Shown here: piece by piece, positions 24,481 to 37,947 of the stretch
Numbering within the stretch: position 1 is the stretch's first letter
Layout of the letters: each line of letters starts with the position of its first letter
From: Chlorobaculum limnaeum
GTDB taxonomy: Bacteria; Bacteroidota; Chlorobiia; Chlorobiales; Chlorobiaceae
DNA: 64,000 nt
Direction of reading: 5' to 3'
Assembly: GCF_001747405.1 (NCBI RefSeq)
Contig: NZ_CP017305.1
Location: 886,001 to 950,000 of the forward strand
The notes under the pieces: generated by a model
Told to the model about the DNA's origin: nothing
What the model saw: the letters and a program-made list of their open reading frames with translations, nothing else
Databases searched by the model: none
Position numbers and translations under genes: made by a program

Positions 24481-24663
24481 TTTTGCGCAAGCTTTGAGGT
24501 ATTAAACCTTGAACATGCATAATTGACTGATTGAGATCGAACCGTTCTCTGATATTTATACGGATTTGGCATCTGGTCATTCGGGTTTTCTTTTCTCTGG
24601 TTAACACGAATGACTTTATTTTGCGGGCTTTTCGAAACATTTTCAACCATAAAGAACCAAAGC

Positions 24664-25278
24664 ATGAAAAAAAAATTGGCCCTGGTAGCTGGAGTGCTTC
24701 TGACATCAGGAATGGCAAATCAAGCGTTTGCCGATATAATTGCCTTGTCATTTACGGATGGGATTCCGAGCTCCTTCGTAGACGATCCATTACCCAATAT
24801 TGTTGGCTGGGAGTTTACTATTTCTTCGCCAGTAACGGTGACAAGCCTCGGGTTTTATGATTATGACAATGACGGGCTTGTTAACGATCATGCAGTGTCC
24901 ATCTGGGACAGTTCAGCTTATGTGGTGGTTTCTGCATCGATAACCAATTCCGGCTGGAGTGATGCGGGGTATGTTTGGGAAACGGTTACGCCCGTTACTC
25001 TTTCTGCTGGCACATACAGAATTGGTGCGGAAATTTTTGGGAATGACTATTATTATTCGGCAGCTACTTCGGTGATAACGGCGACTCCGGTATCCTATTC
25101 AGGGGGCGTTTATGCCGTTGGCGGTTTTGAATATCCTGGAAATGTCAGTATGAATAATGGTCGCTTTGGGCCGAACTTTTCATTTAACGTTGTGCCAGAG
25201 CCGACAAGCATGCTGCTTTTGGGCATGGGCCTTGTAGGTTTGACGGCTTTACGAAGGAGAAAAACAGACGGGGTCTGA
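24664..25278 (+). CDS. DUF4082-like PEP-CTERM sorting-signal protein (copy 1)
   Basis: This 204-residue protein has a signal peptide (MKKKLALVAGVLLTSGMANQAFA), one beta-rich domain like DUF4082 (about 24-180) and a C-terminal VPEPTSMLLLGMGLVGLTALRRR tail. The tail is a textbook PEP-CTERM signal: PEP motif, membrane helix, basic cluster. Such proteins are handled by exosortase and anchored or released at the cell surface. No exosortase gene is in this window. It follows the lipase-RTX giant by 183 bases and has a close paralogue at 37333-37947 in the same relative position. I start at the ATG at 24664 because it begins the signal peptide. Confidence 0.9.
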   Translation: MKKKLALVAGVLLTSGMANQAFADIIALSFTDGIPSSFVDDPLPNIVGWEFTISSPVTVTSLGFYDYDNDGLVNDHAVSIWDSSAYVVVSASITNSGWSDAGYVWETVTPVTLSAGTYRIGAEIFGNDYYYSAATSVITATPVSYSGGVYAVGGFEYPGNVSMNNGRFGPNFSFNVVPEPTSMLLLGMGLVGLTALRRRKTDGV

Positions 25279-25876: not shown

Positions 25877-28800
25877 ATGGTAATCAATCCCAACCCGTTG
25901 CTCAATGCCAGCGTGGACGGTCCCGGCAACGTCGTGACCCTCTATTTTTCGGACAAGCTCGATACGTCGAGTGTTCCGGCGCTTGACCAGTTTGCCGTTT
26001 TCAGCGATGGCATCGAACAGGTAATCACCGCCATCCAGCTGGTGAATAACCAGGTCATTCTGACCCTGGCCGCATCACTCGACAGCCTGCTGCCGGTCAC
26101 GGTCTCCTATACCTCCTCTTCCGATACTCTCCAGAACATCAACGGTGACGACGTCGCCTCCTTCGAGGATGCCGAGGTCGACAATCAGCTTTCGCTGACG
26201 GCTTCCGAGAGCGAGTCGTTCACGTTTGCTTCGACCATTACAATGGATTACGGCGCGGAAATTTCCGCATTCGATCCTTCGAGCCAGCGCCTGTTCGTGA
26301 CCTCTCCGGAGGGTGGCTTGCAGATTCTCGGAATCGACGATCAGTTGCAGATGACCAAATTCGCAACCATCGAGCTCGGGAGCAATATGGTCAACAGCGT
26401 GGCCGTCAAGAATGGTATCGTGGCTGTCGCGGTTGCCGATGCTGACAAAACCCAGCCGGGCAAGGTCTATTTCCTTGATGCAGGTGCGACGATTCTTGAT
26501 GCTTCGATGATTCTTGGCAGCGTCGAGGTCGGCGCCAATCCCGACATGCTGACCTTCACGCCCGACGGCAGCAAGGTGCTGGTGGCCAACGAGGGTGAAA
26601 TGGCAAGCGAATCCAGCGATCCCGAAGGTTCGGTGAGCATCATCGATCTCAGCGAGGTTCTTGCCGGTAAGGCTACCGAGCCGACCGTCACCACCGCCGG
26701 CTTCACCGCGTTCAACTCGCAGCTCGACGCGCTCAAGGAGGCTGGCGTCAGGCTCTTTGCCGGTGAGGATGGTTTTGAAAGCACGACAGTCGCCCAGGAC
26801 CTCGAACCGGAATACATCAGTATCTCTCCCGATGGCACGACGGCGTTCGTGACGCTTCAGGAGAACAATGCTATCGCGATTCTCGATATCGCTTCCGGTA
26901 CGTTTACCGGTATTGTTCCCCTTGGTCTGAAGAGCTTCTCCAGCCTTCCGTTTGACGGCAGCGACAAGGACGGGATCGATCTCCAGACAGGCCAGCCGGT
27001 CTATGGTAAGTACATGCCGGATGCCATCGCTTCCTTCACCGGCTCCGACGGCAAGACCTACTACGTGATCGCCAATGAGGGCGATGATCGCGACGATTTT
27101 CTCGCCACACCGGAGACCGCGCGCGTCAAAGACCTCGTGCTCGATTCGACGGTGTTTCCAGATGCGGCGACGCTTCAGGGCAATAACGAGCTGGGACGTC
27201 TCACAGTCTCAAATGCGTCTGGTAACAACGGCGACACCGATGGCGATGGCGACATCGATCAGCTTCTTGCCTACGGTGCTCGCTCTTTCAGCATTCTTGA
27301 CTCGGAGGGCAATATTGTTTTCGACAGCGCCTCGCATATCGAGCAGTTCGTCGCCCAATATGGTCTGTACACCGGTGCCGCCGGAGCCGGGCTTTTTGAT
27401 GATGGCCGTTCCGACAACAAGGGCCCGGAGCCTGAGGGCATTACCGTCGGAGTCGTGGATGGCAAAACCCTCGCCTTCGTGACGCTCGAACGGGGTGGCG
27501 GTGGCGTGATGGTCTATGATGTGACCAATCCGGAAGAGGTCAGCTTTGTGCAGTACCTCGCCCATTCCGGTGATGTGAGTCCGGAAGGGGTACTGTTCAT
27601 TTCGGCTGCTGACAGCCCGACCGGCCATGAACTGCTGATCGTCAGCAACGAGGTCTCCAACACGGTCACCATCTTTCAGGAAAATCATGCACCTGAGCTC
27701 GTTGACGGATACAGTGATGTGACCGTCATGGAGGATCAGGCATTCGACAGGGTGCTGGTGGTTGAAAACATGTTCAGTGATGCCGATGAGGACGATACGC
27801 TGACCTACACGGTGACGCTGGCCAACGGTGATCCACTGCCGACGTGGCTGACAGTGAGTGAGACGGAGCAAAACCTGGACGAAATGCTGGATTACTTCAA
27901 GTCCGGGGGACAGTGGCCTGCGACGGACTCGGCATCTGCCGGAACGGCAATTGCCACGGGAGTGAAGACAGTGGATGGCAACATCGCCTGGGAGCGTACC
28001 GACAGCGCTGGAGGCGAGATCGAGACCATCGCTGAAACGTTGCGGGGCGAGCTTGGCTACGCGATCGGTGTCGCCAGCACGGTGCCGTTCTCGCACGCCA
28101 CTCCGGCGACCTTCGTGAGCCACGATGTGAGCCGCAACAACTACTGGGACATCGCGCACGAGATTCTGTTCGAGACGCAGCCGGAGGTGGTGATTGGTGG
28201 TGGCATGGAGAACAGCAACTTTGCCAAAGCGGTCAAATCGGCAGGTAACGTTGACCGTGACCTCGATGACAACGGCTACAACGATGATTACGATGCGTTT
28301 GTCAACGATACCGACGGTACGGAGTATGTGTTCGTCAAACGCGAAGAGGGCGAGGACGGCGGAGATACGCTGGCAGCGGCTGCGGCGACGGTCGATCTCT
28401 CTGCGGGCGAGAAGCTTTTCGGCCTTTATGGTACCTCAGGCGGCAACTTTGAATACTACAATGTGTATGACACTCCGGGCATTGCAACCATCACGCGCAG
28501 CACGACCGACGCGACGCCGACGGTTGACGAAGACCCGACGCTGGCCGAGGTGACGAACGTCTCGTTGTCGGTGCTTAACCAGGATGCGGATGGCTTCTTC
28601 ATCATGATCGAGCAGGGCGACATCGACTGGAGAAACCACGCCAACGACTACGAAAACATGATTGGCGGCGTCTATGATCTCGAAATGGCGGTCACCGCAG
28701 CCGAGAACTATGTGGCTTCGGGAGTCAACGGCATCGACTGGTCGAACACGCTGGTGATCGTCACGAGCGACCACTCGAACAGCTACCTGCGAGCACAGGA

Positions 28801-31800
28801 AGAGCTGGGCATGGGTGACCTTCCGGAGCAGAACGGAAAGAGCTATCCTGATGGTGAGGTTACCTATGCTTCGGGTGGTCACACCAACGAGCTGGTTACG
28901 GTCTCGGCACGCGGCGCGGGTGCCACGTATTTTGGCGAGCTTGCCGGTCAGATTTACGATGGTACGGAGATCATCGACAACACGCAGATTTACGAGGCGA
29001 TGATGAAAGCCGCCACGGAGGCCGGAGCGGAGCATATCATCCTCTTCATCGGCGACGGCATGAACGTGGAACACGAAATCGCCGGAAGTCGCTATCTGTA
29101 CGGGGAGGATTTCGGCCTGACGTGGCATGACTGGGGTACGCTGGAGGATGGCTGGTCTGGCTATGCGAGCACCTGGGACGTGACGGCGTACAACAAGTAC
29201 GCGAGCATGGCCGGGGTGGATTCCTACAGCGAGACCACCTTCGATCCGCTGATCGGCTACGATCCGGCAAAGGGCGGCGTGACGCCGTACCCTGTAGAGA
29301 TGCCCGAATCGTTTACGCTGAGTGGCACACCGGGCAACGATGAGGTCGGTTCCATTGAGATCAAGGTGACCGCTACCGACAAGAGTGGCGTCAGCGTCAG
29401 CGATACGTTCACGCTGACGGTGGAGAACACCAACGATGCGCCGATGGTGGCCAACGCGATAGCCGATCAGGGCGCAACCGAAGACGCAGCCTTCAGCTTC
29501 ACAGTTCCATCAAATACCTTCAATGATGTGGATGCGGGCGACACGTTGAGCTACACGGCAACGCTGGCCGATGGCAGTGTGCTGCCCGGCTGGCTGAGCT
29601 TCAATGCCGGAACACGAACCTTCAGCGGCACACCGGACAACGATGAGGTGGGCTCCATCGAGATCAAAGTGACGGCCACCGACGAGAGTGGCGTCAGCGT
29701 CAGCGATACGTTCACGCTGACGGTGGAGAACACTAACGATGCGCCGGAAGTTGGCAGGGCCATCGAGAATGTGACCGTGCTGGAAGATGGCAAGCTCAAC
29801 TACCATGTACTCTCAAACAGCTTCACGGATGTGGATGCAGGCGACACGTTCACCTACACCGCGACCCTGGCCAACGGCGATCCACTGCCAGATTGGCTGA
29901 ACTTCGATGCATCGAGCCACAATCTGGAGACGATGGAGAAGTACTTCCTGGCTGGCGGTTCGGCGAAGAAAGCCACGGACTCGGCATCTGCCGGAACGGC
30001 AATTGCCACGGGAGTGAAGACAGTGGATGGCAACATCGCCTGGGAGCGTACCGACAGCGCTGGAGGCGAGATCGAGACCATCGCTGAAACGTTGCGGGGC
30101 GAGCTTGGCTACGCGATCGGTGTCGCCAGCACGGTGCCGTTCTCGCACGCCACTCCGGCGACCTTCGTGAGCCACGATGTGAGCCGCAACAACTACTGGG
30201 ACATCGCGCACGAGATTCTGTTCGAGACGCAGCCGGAGGTGGTGATTGGTGGTGGCATGGAGAACAGCAACTTTGCCAAAGCGGTCAAATCGGCAGGTAA
30301 CGTTGACCGTGACCTCGATGACAACGGCTACAACGATGATTACGATGCGTTTGTCAACGATACCGACGGTACGGAGTATGTGTTCGTCAAACGCGAAGAG
30401 GGCGAGGACGGCGGAGATACGCTGGCAGCGGCTGCGGCGACGGTCGATCTCTCTGCGGGCGAGAAGCTTTTCGGCCTTTATGGTACCTCAGGCGGCAACT
30501 TTGAATACTACAATGTGTATGACACTCCGGGCATTGCAACCATCACGCGCAGCACGACCGACGCGACGCCGACGGTTGACGAAGACCCGACGCTGGCCGA
30601 GGTGACGAACGTCTCGTTGTCGGTGCTTAACCAGGATGCGGATGGCTTCTTCATCATGATCGAGCAGGGCGACATCGACTGGAGAAACCACGCCAACGAC
30701 TACGAAAACATGATTGGCGGCGTCTATGATCTCGAAATGGCGGTCACCGCAGCCGAGAACTATGTGGCTTCGGGAGTCAACGGCATCGACTGGTCGAACA
30801 CGCTGGTGATCGTCACGAGCGACCACTCGAACAGCTACCTGCGAGCACAGGAAGAGCTGGGCATGGGTGACCTTCCGGAGCAGAACGGAAAGAGCTATCC
30901 TGATGGTGAGGTTACCTATGCTTCGGGTGGTCACACCAACGAGCTGGTTACGGTCTCGGCACGCGGCGCGGGTGCCACGTATTTTGGCGAGCTTGCCGGT
31001 CAGATTTACGATGGTACGGAGATCATCGACAACACGCAGATTTACGAGGCGATGATGAAAGCCGCCACGGAGGCCGGAGCGGAGCATATCATCCTCTTCA
31101 TCGGCGACGGCATGAACGTGGAACACGAAATCGCCGGAAGTCGCTATCTGTACGGGGAGGATTTCGGCCTGACGTGGCATGACTGGGGTACGCTGGAGGA
31201 TGGCTGGTCTGGCTATGCGAGCACCTGGGACGTGACGGCGTACAACACCTATGCAGGGCTGAACGGAGTCGATGACTACGTTGATTTCGATAGCGCCAAT
31301 AAGGTGATTGGCTACGACCCTGCGCAGGGCGGCGAGACCCCCTATCCGGTCGCGATGACCTTCAGCGGCACGCCGGGCCACGAAGATGTCGGCTCCATCG
31401 AGATCAAGGTAACCGCCACCGACAAGAGTGGCGTCAGCGTCAGCGATACGTTCACGCTGACGGTGGTGGATGATGTTGCACCGACGGTTACCGCCTCCAA
31501 TCCTGCGGACGAAGCGGCAGCGGTGGACGTCAACGGCACCATCACTTTCGAATTCAGCGAAGAGATCGAGCTCCTCGATGAGACCGGTGTGGTGCTGCAT
31601 GCCGGCTCGGTGGATGGCACCGTGGTGGATGCTGACGTTTCAGTCACCGGCTCGACGCTGATGGTCGATCCGACGGGCGCGCTGGTCAACGGCACCGAGT
31701 ACTACCTGACCTTCGATGGCGATGCAGTCTGTGACCTCGCTGGCAATTACTACGATGACGATGAGTCTGATGTTTTCCACTTCACGACGCTCGAAGCAGC

Positions 31801-31897
31801 TGTTGCGGCCACTGGAGGTTCTTCGGATGGCCTTGGCGCTGGTGAAATGCTGGCTGGCGTGGCCGGAATCGGCCTTCTCGCCTTCCTGATTTTCTGA
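25877..31897 (+). CDS. Giant surface protein: choice-of-anchor I domain and two permuted alkaline phosphatase domains within Ig-like repeats
   Basis: The ATG at 25877 has a good GGAGAA ribosome binding site; the product is 2006 residues. Residues about 5-95 resemble an SwmB-type Ig domain. About 118-605 form a beta-propeller-like choice-of-anchor I domain (YISISPDGTTAFVTLQENNA, PEGITVGVVDGKTLAFVTLE). He_PIG/cadherin-like Ig domains follow. Two of them contain inserted alkaline phosphatase sequence. In copy 1, the nucleophile motif DSASAGTA (Ser685), SDH (965-966) and GGHTNE (His1002) come before the metal motif IGDGMN (Asp1060), the reverse of PhoA order. Copy 2 repeats this 684 residues later (Ser1369, Asp1744). 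A C-terminal Big_5/SbsA-like Ig domain precedes a Gly/Ser linker and a final hydrophobic stretch (EMLAGVAGIGLLAFLIF) that may be an anchor. No classical signal peptide is evident. The likely role is extracellular phosphatase or adhesin; whether the permuted domains are active is untested. Confidence 0.85.
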   Translation: MVINPNPLLNASVDGPGNVVTLYFSDKLDTSSVPALDQFAVFSDGIEQVITAIQLVNNQVILTLAASLDSLLPVTVSYTSSSDTLQNINGDDVASFEDAEVDNQLSLTASESESFTFASTITMDYGAEISAFDPSSQRLFVTSPEGGLQILGIDDQLQMTKFATIELGSNMVNSVAVKNGIVAVAVADADKTQPGKVYFLDAGATILDASMILGSVEVGANPDMLTFTPDGSKVLVANEGEMASESSDPEGSVSIIDLSEVLAGKATEPTVTTAGFTAFNSQLDALKEAGVRLFAGEDGFESTTVAQDLEPEYISISPDGTTAFVTLQENNAIAILDIASGTFTGIVPLGLKSFSSLPFDGSDKDGIDLQTGQPVYGKYMPDAIASFTGSDGKTYYVIANEGDDRDDFLATPETARVKDLVLDSTVFPDAATLQGNNELGRLTVSNASGNNGDTDGDGDIDQLLAYGARSFSILDSEGNIVFDSASHIEQFVAQYGLYTGAAGAGLFDDGRSDNKGPEPEGITVGVVDGKTLAFVTLERGGGGVMVYDVTNPEEVSFVQYLAHSGDVSPEGVLFISAADSPTGHELLIVSNEVSNTVTIFQENHAPELVDGYSDVTVMEDQAFDRVLVVENMFSDADEDDTLTYTVTLANGDPLPTWLTVSETEQNLDEMLDYFKSGGQWPATDSASAGTAIATGVKTVDGNIAWERTDSAGGEIETIAETLRGELGYAIGVASTVPFSHATPATFVSHDVSRNNYWDIAHEILFETQPEVVIGGGMENSNFAKAVKSAGNVDRDLDDNGYNDDYDAFVNDTDGTEYVFVKREEGEDGGDTLAAAAATVDLSAGEKLFGLYGTSGGNFEYYNVYDTPGIATITRSTTDATPTVDEDPTLAEVTNVSLSVLNQDADGFFIMIEQGDIDWRNHANDYENMIGGVYDLEMAVTAAENYVASGVNGIDWSNTLVIVTSDHSNSYLRAQEELGMGDLPEQNGKSYPDGEVTYASGGHTNELVTVSARGAGATYFGELAGQIYDGTEIIDNTQIYEAMMKAATEAGAEHIILFIGDGMNVEHEIAGSRYLYGEDFGLTWHDWGTLEDGWSGYASTWDVTAYNKYASMAGVDSYSETTFDPLIGYDPAKGGVTPYPVEMPESFTLSGTPGNDEVGSIEIKVTATDKSGVSVSDTFTLTVENTNDAPMVANAIADQGATEDAAFSFTVPSNTFNDVDAGDTLSYTATLADGSVLPGWLSFNAGTRTFSGTPDNDEVGSIEIKVTATDESGVSVSDTFTLTVENTNDAPEVGRAIENVTVLEDGKLNYHVLSNSFTDVDAGDTFTYTATLANGDPLPDWLNFDASSHNLETMEKYFLAGGSAKKATDSASAGTAIATGVKTVDGNIAWERTDSAGGEIETIAETLRGELGYAIGVASTVPFSHATPATFVSHDVSRNNYWDIAHEILFETQPEVVIGGGMENSNFAKAVKSAGNVDRDLDDNGYNDDYDAFVNDTDGTEYVFVKREEGEDGGDTLAAAAATVDLSAGEKLFGLYGTSGGNFEYYNVYDTPGIATITRSTTDATPTVDEDPTLAEVTNVSLSVLNQDADGFFIMIEQGDIDWRNHANDYENMIGGVYDLEMAVTAAENYVASGVNGIDWSNTLVIVTSDHSNSYLRAQEELGMGDLPEQNGKSYPDGEVTYASGGHTNELVTVSARGAGATYFGELAGQIYDGTEIIDNTQIYEAMMKAATEAGAEHIILFIGDGMNVEHEIAGSRYLYGEDFGLTWHDWGTLEDGWSGYASTWDVTAYNTYAGLNGVDDYVDFDSANKVIGYDPAQGGETPYPVAMTFSGTPGHEDVGSIEIKVTATDKSGVSVSDTFTLTVVDDVAPTVTASNPADEAAAVDVNGTITFEFSEEIELLDETGVVLHAGSVDGTVVDADVSVTGSTLMVDPTGALVNGTEYYLTFDGDAVCDLAGNYYDDDESDVFHFTTLEAAVAATGGSSDGLGAGEMLAGVAGIGLLAFLIF
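27923..29195 (+). repeat. 1273-bp direct repeat within the phosphatase gene, copy 1
   Basis: Wherever I compared them, this segment matched 29975-31247 base for base, at a constant offset of 2052 bases. It covers the permuted phosphatase domain from DSASAGTA to just past IGDGMN. Confidence 0.9.
29975..31247 (+). repeat. 1273-bp direct repeat within the phosphatase gene, copy 2
   Basis: Second copy of the 27923-29195 repeat. Flanking sequence (start of the YF-containing helix, and the segment from YNTYAG to PYPV) differs between copies, so identity stops sharply at both ends. Confidence 0.9.
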
Positions 31898-32037: not shown

Positions 32038-32266
32038 GTAAACACTGCGTTTCTGGCGTTGTTCTGACGAAAATATTTTGATATAATTTTCGCGATCGCC
32101 ACCGGTATTTACGCCTTGTCAAAAGAGATCATTCTGATCCTGCCGTGCCATTCGACCGCCTGTCATGCTCGTCGAGTGAAGCGCTTGCAGAGACCCCGCC
32201 TGTAGTTTTGGGCGAAAAGCGATGTTCAGTTTTTCTGGATTATCAACTCCCCAACCCCGTCCGATT

Positions 32267-35200
32267 ATGGTTAGCATCGTTTTCATCGACAGCCGCGTCG
32301 AGCAGAAGGAGCGCCTGATTGCGGCGTTCTCAGACGACACGGAGTACCATGTGCTCAGTGAAGAGCGCGACGGCATCGACCAGATCGCCGACACGCTTTC
32401 CGGCAAAAGCGGCTACTCTTCCATCCACATCATTTCCCACGGTTCGCCGGGCAGCATCACCATCGGCAGCACACTGCTCGACGACGCGAATCTCGACCAC
32501 TACGCAGACGCCCTGTCGCAGATTGGCTACGCATTTCAGACCAACGCCGACCTGCTGCTCTACGGATGCAATGTCGGCGCGGGTGACGCCGGGCAAGCGT
32601 TCATCGAGCACCTCTCGCAACTGACCAGCCTCGACGTCGCCGCCTCGAACGACGCAACCGGCGGTACGCTGGCTGGCGGCGACTGGGAGCTGGAGGTGCA
32701 GGCGGGGGCGGTGGAAGAAGCGCCGGTGGTCGTCTCTGAGAGTTACCAGGTGCTGCTGGGAAACCAAGACCCAAAGATTTCTGTAACGGCGACAATTTCT
32801 TTTTCTGCGAAGGTCGATTATGCAACAGGTGCGAAGCCAGTGTTTTTAACAAGCATTGATATTGATGGCGATAGCGATGTTGATGTGATTGTCGCAAACC
32901 AAGATGGCGATACGGTATCGGTGCTGAAAAACAACGGCAACGGCACCTTTGCGGCGAAGGTCAATTATGTAACGGGCGATAGGCCGTATTCAGTGACCAG
33001 TGCGGACGTGGATGGGGATGGAGATTCCGACCTGCTTGTGGCCAACTCGAATATCGATACAGTTTCAGTGCTGAAGAACAGTGGTAACGGTACCTTTGCG
33101 GCGAAGGTCAATTATGTAACGGGAGACGCTCCGCAGTCTGTGACCAGCGCTGACGTGGATGGCGATGGCGATGCCGATCTGCTTGTTGCAAACTGGGGTA
33201 GCAATACAGTTTCGGTGCTGAAAAACAAAGGGAATGGCACCTTTGTGACGAAAGTCGATTATGCAACAGGCGTTCACCCTGTTTCGGTGACCAGCGCGGA
33301 TGTGGATGGCGATGGCGATGCCGATCTGATTGTTGCCAATCGGGATAACGATACAGTCTCGGTGCTGAAGAACAAAGGGAACGGTACCTTTTCCGCGAAG
33401 GTCGATTATGCAACGGGCGATTATCCAACTTCTGTGACCAGCGCGGATGTTAATAGAGATGGTGATTGCGACCTGATTGTTGCGAATGGGATTAGCGATA
33501 CAATCTCGGTGCTGAAGAACAATGGTAACGGTACCTTTGCGGCGAAGGTCGGTTATGAGACGGGAGATTTGCCGAGGTCGGTAACCAGCGCGGATGTGGA
33601 TGGCGATGGCGATGCCGATCTGCTTGTTGCAAACTATAATAGCGATACCGTATCGGTACTGAAGAACAACGGGAACGGCACCTTTTCCGCGAAGGTCGAT
33701 TATGCGACAGGTGATGGGCCAGTTTCGGTGACGAGTGCGGACGTTGATGGCGATGGCGATGCCGATATGCTGGTGCCAAACTGGTATAGCGATACGGTGT
33801 CGGTGCTGCTGAATACCTCAATGCCAGCGAAGACTGTTGCGTTAGAACAAACCGCGGTGCCGGTATCTTCCGGCGTACTCATCAGTGATCCTGACGGTGA
33901 TGCATCATGGCATGGTGGATCGCTTCAGGTGCAAATATGGATGTCTGCTGAAGCAGGTGATACGTTGTCATTGCCTGGCGAGAACCCCGGAGATGGCGCT
34001 ATCTGGTTCAACGCCGGAGCGTTGGAGTTAATGGCAGGCGATGTACAGATCGGCACGGGCGATGCGGCATCGGTATCGAACAACGCCCTGTGGACGCTGA
34101 CCTTCAACTCCAACGCGACGAATGCGTTGGTGCAGGAGGTTGCTCGTTCGATGCAGTTCACCAACAGCAGCGATGATCCGGGCACGGACGATCGAACCAT
34201 ACAGTTCACGGTGACTGACAATGAGGGGGGAACGGCGCATGTGGATCAGGAGGTGAGAGTGGAAGCGGTAAACGATGCGCCAACCCTGACGGGATTCATC
34301 AGTGAGGCTGTCGTATCCGCTGATGAAGATACTATGGTAGAAATCAGTTTTGCCGATCTGCTTGCAAAGGGAGATGAAGCTGACGTTGATGGCGCGGTGG
34401 AAGGGTTTGTGGTCAAGGGCGTGACCAGCGGAACATTGAAGATTGGTATATCTGCAGAAAGCGCTCAAGCATGGAGCTTCTCGGCGAACAATACAATCGA
34501 TGCAGCACACCATGCGTACTGGTTGTCTGGTTCAAATTCCTATGGCAACATCGAAGCCTTTTCTGTGGTTGCCGTGGATGATGGTGGAGCAGAGTCGCTG
34601 ACTGCGATTGATGTTGGGGTTGAAGTGAATCCTGTCAGTGATTTGCCGGAAATTTCAATACCGGCCCTACTCTCTTTTGCCGCGAAGGTCGATTATGCGA
34701 CGGGTTGGTCGCCGTCTTCGGTGACAAGCGCGGATATTGATGGAGATGGCGATGCTGACGTGATTGTGGCAAACTCCGATAGCGATACGGTGTCGGTGCT
34801 GAAAAACAACGGTAATGGTACATTTGCTGCAAAGGTCGATTATGCGACGGGCGATGATCCAACTTCTGTGATAGGTACGGACATCGACAGCGATGGCGAT
34901 GCTGACGTGATTGTGGCAAACTTCTATAGCGATACGGTCTCGGTGCTGCTGAACAACGGGAATGGCACCTTTGCCGCTAAGGTGGATTATACAACGGGCG
35001 ATGCGCCGCTAAGGTTGATCAGCGCGGACGTGGATGGCGATGGTTATGCCGATATGATCGTTGTTAACGAGGGCAGTGGTACAGTGTCAGTTCTGAAGAA
35101 TAACAGGAATGGCACCTTTGCCGCTAAGGTGGATTATACAACGGGCGATTTACCGGTTTCGGTTACAAGTGCGGACGTTGATGGCGATGGGATGCCGACC

Positions 35201-37227
35201 TGCTTGTGTCAAACTATGGGAGCGACACGGTATCGGTGCTGAAGAATAAGGGGAACGGCACCTTTGCTCCAAGGGTCGATTATGCGACGGGCGATGGGCC
35301 GTGGTCGGCGATCAGTGCGGACGTGGATGGTGATGGCGATGTCGATGTGCTTGTGTCGAATCCGGCTAGCGATACGGTATCGGTTCTGAAGAACTACGGA
35401 GATGGCTGGTTTGATACGAAGGCGGATTACGCAACGGGAGATCGTCCATTGTTGTTGAACATAGCTGATTTAGATAGTGATGGCGATTCCGATATGATGG
35501 TTACCAACAGGGATAGCGATACGGCATCGGTGCTGAAGAACAACGGTGACGGCACCTTTGCTGCAAAAGTCGATTATGTGACGGGCGATGTGCCGGTTTC
35601 GGTGACGAGTGCGGACGTTGATGGCGATGGCGATGCCGATATGCTGGTGGCAAACTATGGTAGTAACACGGTGTCGGTGTTGCTGAATACCTCGATGCCA
35701 GCGGAGACCGTGGCGTTAGAGCAAACAGCGGTGCCGGTATCTCCCGGTGTGCTCATCAGTGATCCTGACGGTGATGCATCATGGGACGGCGGTACGTTGC
35801 AGGTGCAAATATGGACGTCTGCTGAAGCAGGTGATACGTTGTCATTGCCTGGTGAGAACCCCGGAGATGGCGCTATCTGGTTCAACGCAGGAGCGTTGCA
35901 GTTAATGGCAGGCGATGTACAGATCGGCACGGGCGATGCGGCATCGGTATCGAACAACGCCCTGTGGACGCTGACCTTCAACTCCAACGCGACGAATGCG
36001 TTGGTGCAGGAGGTTGCTCGTTCGATGCAGTTCACCAACAGCAGCGATGATCCGGGCACGGACGAGCGGGTCGTAAGGTTCACGGTGACCGATAATGAGG
36101 GCGCTACAGCCTTTACGGATCAGACGCTGAGGGTGGTAGCGGTCAACGATGCTCCGACCCTGACGGTGTTCAGTGATCCTGTGGCATCGACCAATGAAGA
36201 TACGATGGTAGGGATCAGCGTTGGCCAGTTGCTTGCAAAGGGCAACGAGGCTGATGTTGACGGCACGGTGACAGGCTTTATGGTGAAGTCAGTCACTTCT
36301 GGTACGCTGCGCATCGGCGCGGACGCAGCAAGCGCGACAGCGTGGGATGCGGCAACGAACAACCTGATCGACGCCACGCACTCCGCTTGGTGGACACCTG
36401 AGGTCGATAATCACGGTGTGCTCGGTGCATTCACGGTGGTGGTCAAAGATAATGACGGTCTGGAATCATCAACGCCAGTGCAAGTGACTGTGGACGTGCT
36501 TAACGCCATTACGGGAACCGGGGGCAATGATAAACTTTTCGGAGAGGACGGTAACGATCTGCTGGACGGTGGAACCGGCGCTGACTGGATGGAAGGTGGT
36601 GCAGGCGATGATGTCTATGTGGTTGACAACACGAAAGATGTGGTGAAGGAGTTGGCGGGAGCCGGGACGGATACCGTACAGGCGAGCGTGACATACAAAA
36701 TGCCAAGCAATATCGAAAACCTCACGCTCACTGGAGGGGAATCGATCAGTGGCAAAGGTAACGCGGGAGCCAACGTTATTACCGGAAACGACGCCGACAA
36801 TCTGATGGATGGCGCTACCGGAGCCGACACGATTGACGGATGTGGCGGAAACGACACGATCAAAGGTGGCCTCGGAGTTGACCAGATGACCGGAGGTGCG
36901 GGTAACGACACGTTCATTTTCGATTATCTGGCGGTTTCGGAAAGCGGCATCATCATGACAAGCCACGACATCATAACCGATTTCGTTTCAGGCGAGGATC
37001 TACTGGATTTGTCGGCAGTTGATGCGAATGTTGCCACACCGGGAAATCAGGTGTTCGGCTCTTTGGTCATCTCTGCTACAAATCCCTTTACCGCTCCCGG
37101 TCAATTATGGTTTGACAACGCAACAGGCCTGCTGTCAGGCAATACGGACAGCAATCTCATGACAGCAGAGATAACCATCCAGTTAGTCGGTGTAACCAGC
37201 CTGGTGGTGGATGACATTGTTTTCTGA
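32267..37227 (+). pseudogene. Giant secreted protein: DUF4347, two FG-GAP arrays, cadherin-like and RTX domains; split by a 1-base deletion
   Basis: The 5' frame runs 32267-35242 and the 3' frame 35206-37227. Order: DUF4347 (about 1-160); seven 49-residue FG-GAP/VCBS repeats of the form SADVDGDGDADLLVAN...DTVSVLKNNGNGTF (32807-33820); a VALEQTA cadherin-like block; an EDTMVEI Ig-like domain; a second array of seven FG-GAP repeats (34682-35700); the same two blocks again; then RTX repeats (GGAGDDVYVVDNTKDVV, GGNDTIKGGLGVD) and a C-terminal tail paralogous to the gene ending at 24480. In the second array GATGGCGATGGCGATGCC reads GATGGCGATGGGATGCC, a missing C near 35190. The spacing between matching points of the two internal copies falls from 1875 to 1874 bases there. 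Without it the protein would be about 1650 residues. It may be a real mutation, phase variation or a sequence error. Confidence 0.85.
32807..36555 (+). repeat. Internal tandem duplication of 1875 bp (FG-GAP array plus cadherin-like block)
   Basis: Unit 1 (about 32807-34681) and unit 2 (about 34682-36555) each contain seven 147-base FG-GAP repeats followed by the VALEQTA block and an EDTMV-type domain. The VALEQTA blocks are almost identical at DNA level (33841 and 35715 are matching points). Confidence 0.85.
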
Positions 37228-37332: not shown

Positions 37333-37947
37333 ATGAAAAAAGTATTGTCATTGGCAACCGGAGTGCTCCTGATGTCAGGAATAGCAAATCAGGCGTTTGC
37401 AGATGTTATCGCCATGTCTTTTACAGCTGGGACTGAATTTCCCTATGTCAGTGATCCGTTACCCAATACCGTTGGCTGGGAGTTTACTCTTTCTTCGCCA
37501 GTTACGGTGACAAGCCTCGGTTTTTACGATTTTGACGATGACGGGCTTGTAAATGATCATGATGTGTCAATCTGGGACAGTTCGGCTAACGTGGTGGTTT
37601 CTGCATCGGTAACCACTTCAGGTTGGAGTGATGCGGGGTATTTTTGGGAATCGGTGACTCCCGTTACCCTTTCTGCAGGCACCTACAGGATCGGCGCAGC
37701 AATTTATGGAGATGATTATTATTACTCGGGAGCATCTTCGGTGATAACGGCAACTCCTGTAACCTACTCTGGTGGAGTCTATGCTGTTGGCAGTTTTGAT
37801 TATCCCGATAACCTCAGTTCGAATAATGGACGTTTCGGGCCAAACTTTACCTTCACTGCCGTACCGGAACCGGCAACCATGTTGCTTCTGGGCACGGGGC
37901 TTGCAGTGTTGACGGCTTTACGAAGAGAAAAAACAGACGTAGTCTGA
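37333..37947 (+). CDS. DUF4082-like PEP-CTERM sorting-signal protein (copy 2)
   Basis: The 204-residue paralogue of the protein at 24664-25278 is collinear and the same length. It has a signal peptide (MKKVLSLATGVLLMSGIANQAFA), the DUF4082-like beta domain with GWEFTLSSPVTVTSLGFYDF, and a PEP-CTERM tail from VPEPATMLLLGTGLAVLTALRR to the basic end. Like copy 1 it directly follows a DUF4347-RTX giant, so a surface partnership between the two products is plausible but unproven. It ends at a strong terminator. Confidence 0.92.
   Translation: MKKVLSLATGVLLMSGIANQAFADVIAMSFTAGTEFPYVSDPLPNTVGWEFTLSSPVTVTSLGFYDFDDDGLVNDHDVSIWDSSANVVVSASVTTSGWSDAGYFWESVTPVTLSAGTYRIGAAIYGDDYYYSGASSVITATPVTYSGGVYAVGSFDYPDNLSSNNGRFGPNFTFTAVPEPATMLLLGTGLAVLTALRREKTDVV

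Follow-up and report, generated by a model that had tools for sequence, protein, structure and literature searches.

The window, a stretch of 64,000 nucleotides from Chlorobaculum limnaeum, contains an open reading frame of 2020 amino acids in which Pfam detects a choice-of-anchor I domain, two Alk_phosphatase (PF00245) matches, four He_PIG stretches and a Big_5 domain (Table 1). The PF00245 match to the protein scores 228.7 bits against a curated cut-off of 24.4 bits, or about 110 bits for each alkaline phosphatase (AP) copy. No Sec signal was evident when the N-termini of the window protein and its homologues were inspected by eye.

Table 1. Features of the AP locus in the window (Ig, immunoglobulin-like)
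Feature	Position	Strand	Remark
Whole open reading frame, 2020 aa	25835..31897	+	Homologues start at a Met matching Met15 (nt 25877)
Choice-of-anchor I domain (PF22494 / NF038117), residues 140-614	26252..27676	+	Pfam
Host Ig 1 (He_PIG), N-terminal part, ending in LPTWLTVSETEQ	27692..27871	+	
AP copy 1, canonical C-half	27872..29026	+	
Perfect 1273-bp direct repeat, copy 1	27923..29195	+	
AP copy 1, canonical N-half (IGDGMN, Asp1074), downstream of C-half	29027..29302	+	
Host Ig 1, C-terminal part, starting with TLSGTPG	29315..29425	+	
Unbroken He_PIG domain (residues 1203-1297), the intact Ig used for comparison within the protein	29441..29725	+	Pfam
Host Ig 2, N-terminal part, ending in LPDWLNFDASSH	29732..29920	+	
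AP copy 2, canonical C-half	29921..31078	+	
Perfect 1273-bp direct repeat, copy 2	29975..31247	+	
AP copy 2, canonical N-half	31079..31357	+	
Host Ig 2, C-terminal part, starting with TFSGTPG	31358..31474	+	
Big_5 Ig-like domain, residues 1879-1985	31469..31789	+	Pfam
C-terminal tail GGSSDGLGAGEMLAGVAGIGLLAFLIF	31790..31894	+	

The locus is preceded by a D-Ala-D-Ala ligase gene and followed by a lipoate ligase gene, both in the window and in a single-contig genome of 2,289,249 bp (G012); the lipoate ligase is also found 3’ of the locus in a further genome (G006). Other giant surface proteins are clustered here. A DUF4347/FG-GAP/RTX protein (32222-35242 and 35206-37227) is apparently split by a frameshift near 35190, where the first reading frame leaves the repeat frame (GDGMPTCLCQ...) and the second carries on the FG-GAP repeats. 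The cluster is flanked by PEP-CTERM-type proteins at 24610-25278 (recognized by eye) and 37333-37947 (Pfam).

The C-terminal tail, of the pattern ATGGxSDGLxxGExLAGVAGxGLLAFxIF, recurs in an RTX/Ig protein of 1151 amino acids that belongs to the same genome and is in other respects unlike the window protein (locus L165, 954-4409, at G000:C1 ~1605456), and a similar tail occurs in homologues from other Chlorobiaceae. It is possibly a sorting or secretion tail of an undescribed kind.

Order of the phosphatase halves and their Ig host

A motif scan of the protein gave the order DSASAGTA, TSDH, GGHTNE, IGDGMN in both copies, with starts in copy 1 and copy 2 at residues 698 and 1382 (DSASAGTA), 978 and 1662 (SDH), 1014 and 1698 (GGHTNE), and 1072 and 1756 (IGDGMN). 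The collinear IGDGM-DSA-SDH-H412 order is thus absent from both copies. The Ig boundary motifs start at 668 (LPTWL) and 1351 (LPDWL) on the upstream side and at 1163 and 1844 (SGTP) on the downstream side. An earlier note on this DNA had described the same motif order and had placed the Ig boundaries at these breaks and resumptions. Both observations were confirmed; its residue numbers are 14 lower than those used here, that is, they count from Met15.

In each copy, the PF00245 match is limited to profile positions from ~54-57 up to 313, as the part that corresponds to the first ~54 sits downstream. Across 118 genomes, full-length canonical matches began at profile positions 1-5 and those of permuted genes at 42-58. 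As the N-half follows the C-half in all homologues that have both, these proteins are classed as a permuted variant of PF00245 and not as ordinary members.

When the halves were rejoined in canonical order, the scores against AP proteins encoded on Calothrix and Nostoc plasmids rose from 136 to 150 bits and from 127 to 134 bits, respectively, and coverage rose from 78% to 84%, with the match spanning the cut. The formation of the new termini thus cost little sequence. Where the old termini are fused, the last helix is followed by the first strand after no more than a short linker (about ATEAGAEH). Through this linker, the original C-terminal helix would lead into what was the first strand (IIDNTQIYEAMMKAATEAGAEHIILFIGDGM). 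The new termini would have arisen in the loop that joins GYDPxxGGxTPYPV to (N)LETMxxYF, directly upstream of the nucleophile segment. Since they were adjacent in the parent chain, a hairpin of a He_PIG/cadherin-like Ig domain can take up the enzyme without being distorted.

The unbroken He_PIG copy of the same protein reads LPGWLSFNAGTRTFSGTP. In the host domains, the WL(S/T)F strand precedes the AP insert and the (T)FSGTP strand follows it. In homologues, the He_PIG profile match stops at ~57 and restarts at ~61; for example, residues 626-680 of L033 correspond to profile positions 4-57, and residues 1175-1210 of L044 to positions 61-96. An Ig-like domain is therefore interrupted at a single loop and finished beyond the insert, as in a split domain. 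RTX repeats are present in both of these homologues and absent from the window protein.

Conservation, pairing of the halves and the repeat

Copy 1 was compared with 101 related genomes, and collinear full-length matches of 69-87% identity were found in about 17 Chlorobiaceae genomes. A scan of GTDB contigs, which reaches close relatives only, returned records exclusively from Chlorobiaceae/Chlorobiota. At about 15 Chlorobiaceae loci, exactly one copy is present per reading frame, arranged as LPxWL, C-half, N-half and SGTP; two copies per reading frame also occur at L034 and L058. An alignment of 20 blocks, two of them from the window protein and 18 from loci elsewhere, has a single shared cut point and a single Ig host (LPxWL...SGTP) in all rows. 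The same order and boundaries in 20 blocks imply that the arrangement did not arise by chance.

Profiles built solely from canonical APs (28 genomic and 3 plasmid-borne) placed the N-half downstream of the C-half whenever a homologue had both, and detected no N-half upstream in the single-copy reading frames. The earlier note had named canonical-order homologues, with this gene as a relic, as one result that would count against a permuted enzyme. None emerged among 394 Bacteroidota genomes, where every close homologue is permuted. Viral contigs yielded only four relatives, at 26-31% identity, phages gave only weak matches, and the fused-termini peptide, searched against plasmids, led to no convincing permuted gene.

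The single-copy loci bear directly on how the halves pair. In the window protein, the N-half of copy 1, the two Ig domains and the C-half of copy 2 read in canonical order, and swapping is physically possible between copies of identical sequence. The earlier note offered as its alternative that the middle IGDGMN half pairs with the second DSASAGTA half, which would leave an orphan half at each end. Such pairing cannot apply to the one-copy proteins of about 15 loci, which keep all catalytic residues and in which the Ig host is likewise completed within one copy. With one copy per reading frame, the N- and C-halves must pair with each other. Cross-copy pairing is thereby refuted as the general arrangement, and we consider it very improbable in the window protein as well. 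The same loci support the note's main proposal of a circularly permuted AP in an Ig loop, and each copy is very probably a complete, circularly permuted PhoA-type AP, nested in an Ig loop and closing its own metal site.

A 1273-bp block is perfectly identical between the two AP copies of the window and breaks off abruptly; the edges around it are just 57% identical in protein, and those of copy 2 are closer to several related genomes than are those of copy 1. Such a block could raise the suspicion that misassembly or misannotation of a repeat created a false order. The same order, however, recurs across many genomes that were assembled separately. Among them is the 2,289,249-bp single-contig genome, which has one copy, in a protein of 1236 amino acids (L055), and no such repeat, and recombination within the repeat could alter the copy number but never the order of the halves. 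An artefact of this kind is scarcely credible. The perfect block with diverged edges suggests gene conversion instead, so the copies would be older paralogues that were homogenised in this way; a collapsed assembly is the less likely reading of the identity.

Active site and predicted structure

In copy 1, the C-half contains the nucleophile Ser699 together with His754, Thr756, Arg767, Glu926, Asp931, His935, Asp979, His980 and His1016. All 13 checked active-site positions, including the catalytic Ser, Arg166 and the Zn/Mg ligands, are invariant in the 20 sequences. By E. coli numbering these are D51, D101, S102, D153 (here His), T155, R166, E322, D327, K328 (here Trp), H331, D369, H370 and H412. 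The metal site of each copy would combine Asp1074, from the downstream half, with Ser699, Asp931, His935, Asp979, His980 and His1016 of the upstream half, and a Mg-type site would be formed by His754/Thr756/Glu926. The His153/Trp328 pair is of the type found in Vibrio and TAB5 AP, both of which are among the PDB matches.

In ten pairwise comparisons, dN/dS was 0.06-0.19 for the C-half and 0.00-0.21 for the N-half, with one N-half value saturated. Such ratios indicate strong purifying selection on each half.

A first AlphaFold2 (AF2) run with the 20 permuted rows alone reached a pLDDT of 64.6, with much of the N-half below 50. For the second run, permuted relatives and canonical N- and C-fragments of AP were added, so that the alignment of each half was aided by canonical sequences. 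The structure prediction that the earlier note had proposed, carried out in this way on copy 2 with its host Ig, gave a confident single-copy fold (pLDDT 82.6, pTM 0.78), in which the IGDGM strand has a pLDDT of ~98 and host-Ig strands are predicted on both sides of the insert. Foldseek matched the model to E. coli AP (E = 7e-16) and to TAB5 AP (target TM 0.67); its search is order-dependent, so the AP match concerns mainly the C-half. The single-copy homologues and the local confidence of the model together suggest that the site closes within one copy.

Whether the permuted AP still serves as an enzyme must also be considered, as it might be a non-catalytic relic or a ligand-binding module, the cargo of a split domain as in RTX adhesins. 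The split Ig architecture has otherwise been described for ligand-binding domains (PMC12077191), and Foldseek weakly matched the first model to the split-domain structure of FrhA. On the other hand, the nucleophile, the Arg166 equivalent and every metal ligand are unchanged throughout 20 sequences at least 63% identical to the query, selection acts strongly on both halves, and homologues fuse the permuted AP to other phosphohydrolase domains. Loss of catalysis is therefore unlikely. The order is kept in about 20 genomes together with all catalytic residues, so this rearrangement of a textbook enzyme is real and probably functional.

Function, origin and comparison with known systems

The permuted AP likely serves, on its Ig stalk, as an extracellular enzyme for scavenging phosphate, although we infer its activity, surface location and scavenging role. 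The choice-of-anchor I domain, Ig repeats, Big_5 and hydrophobic tail would form the extracellular stalk, from which the Ig acting as split domain would bud off the enzyme to hydrolyze phosphomonoesters outside the cell. Homologues add metallophosphatase, phytase-like and 5’-nucleotidase domains. A giant multi-phosphatase at L058 (2546-13882; 3779 amino acids) carries metallophosphatase, choice_anch_I/phytase-like and 5’-nucleotidase C-terminal domains and two permuted APs. No other PhoA, and no PhoX or PhoD, was found in the genome, and a scan of the window revealed no Pho-box-like site above chance. In some green sulfur bacteria, the permuted AP may serve as the principal secreted alkaline phosphatase. 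A more speculative idea is that an active natural PhoA permutant serves as an enzyme-display device, in which the Ig stalk, attached beside the nucleophile loop, may couple its own conformation or its attachment to the surface with active-site access.

The arrangement probably originated by in-frame tandem fusion of AP, after which a C-N segment entered an Ig loop. Natural permutation of a classic metalloenzyme together with its nesting in another domain presents a clean case of permutation enabling domain insertion, because the termini come to stand side by side. Order-dependent annotation sees such enzymes only in part, as Pfam did here by matching from ~55 only. No published natural circular permutant of AP was found in a search of the open literature. 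The fully conserved active site in about 20 genomes makes foldability and activity directly testable against canonical relatives and the engineered permutants of E. coli AP.

Several known systems resemble the window protein. It has significant Pfam and PDB sequence matches to the PhoA-type APs (PF00245; E. coli PhoA, Vibrio AP and TAB5 AP) and has the catalytic Ser, the phosphate-binding Arg and the metal ligands in common with them. It differs from them in that the halves are permuted, the old termini are fused and the new termini lie inside an Ig domain, and in that the AP is one part of a giant multidomain protein in which no signal peptide is evident. The cyanobacterial plasmid APs (Calothrix PCC 7716 BDA76163.1 and Nostoc WP_245246239.1) share ~28-30% identity but have canonical order and no Ig insertion; their GYDPxxGGxTPW ... 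Y ... DSA segment is continuous, whereas the Chlorobiaceae protein is cut there.

Engineered circular permutants of E. coli AP are reported to have high specific activity (Kojima 2005, by its title as cited in PMC3281007). New termini thus leave the PhoA fold active, but those permutants are artificial and not nested in another domain. In the split domains of RTX adhesins (PMC12077191, PMC10865825), an Ig-like domain is likewise interrupted by an inserted domain whose termini are adjacent and which buds off from the stalk. Those adhesins carry a carbohydrate-binding, an RTX or a vWFA ligand-binding domain as cargo, whereas here the cargo is a whole permuted metalloenzyme.
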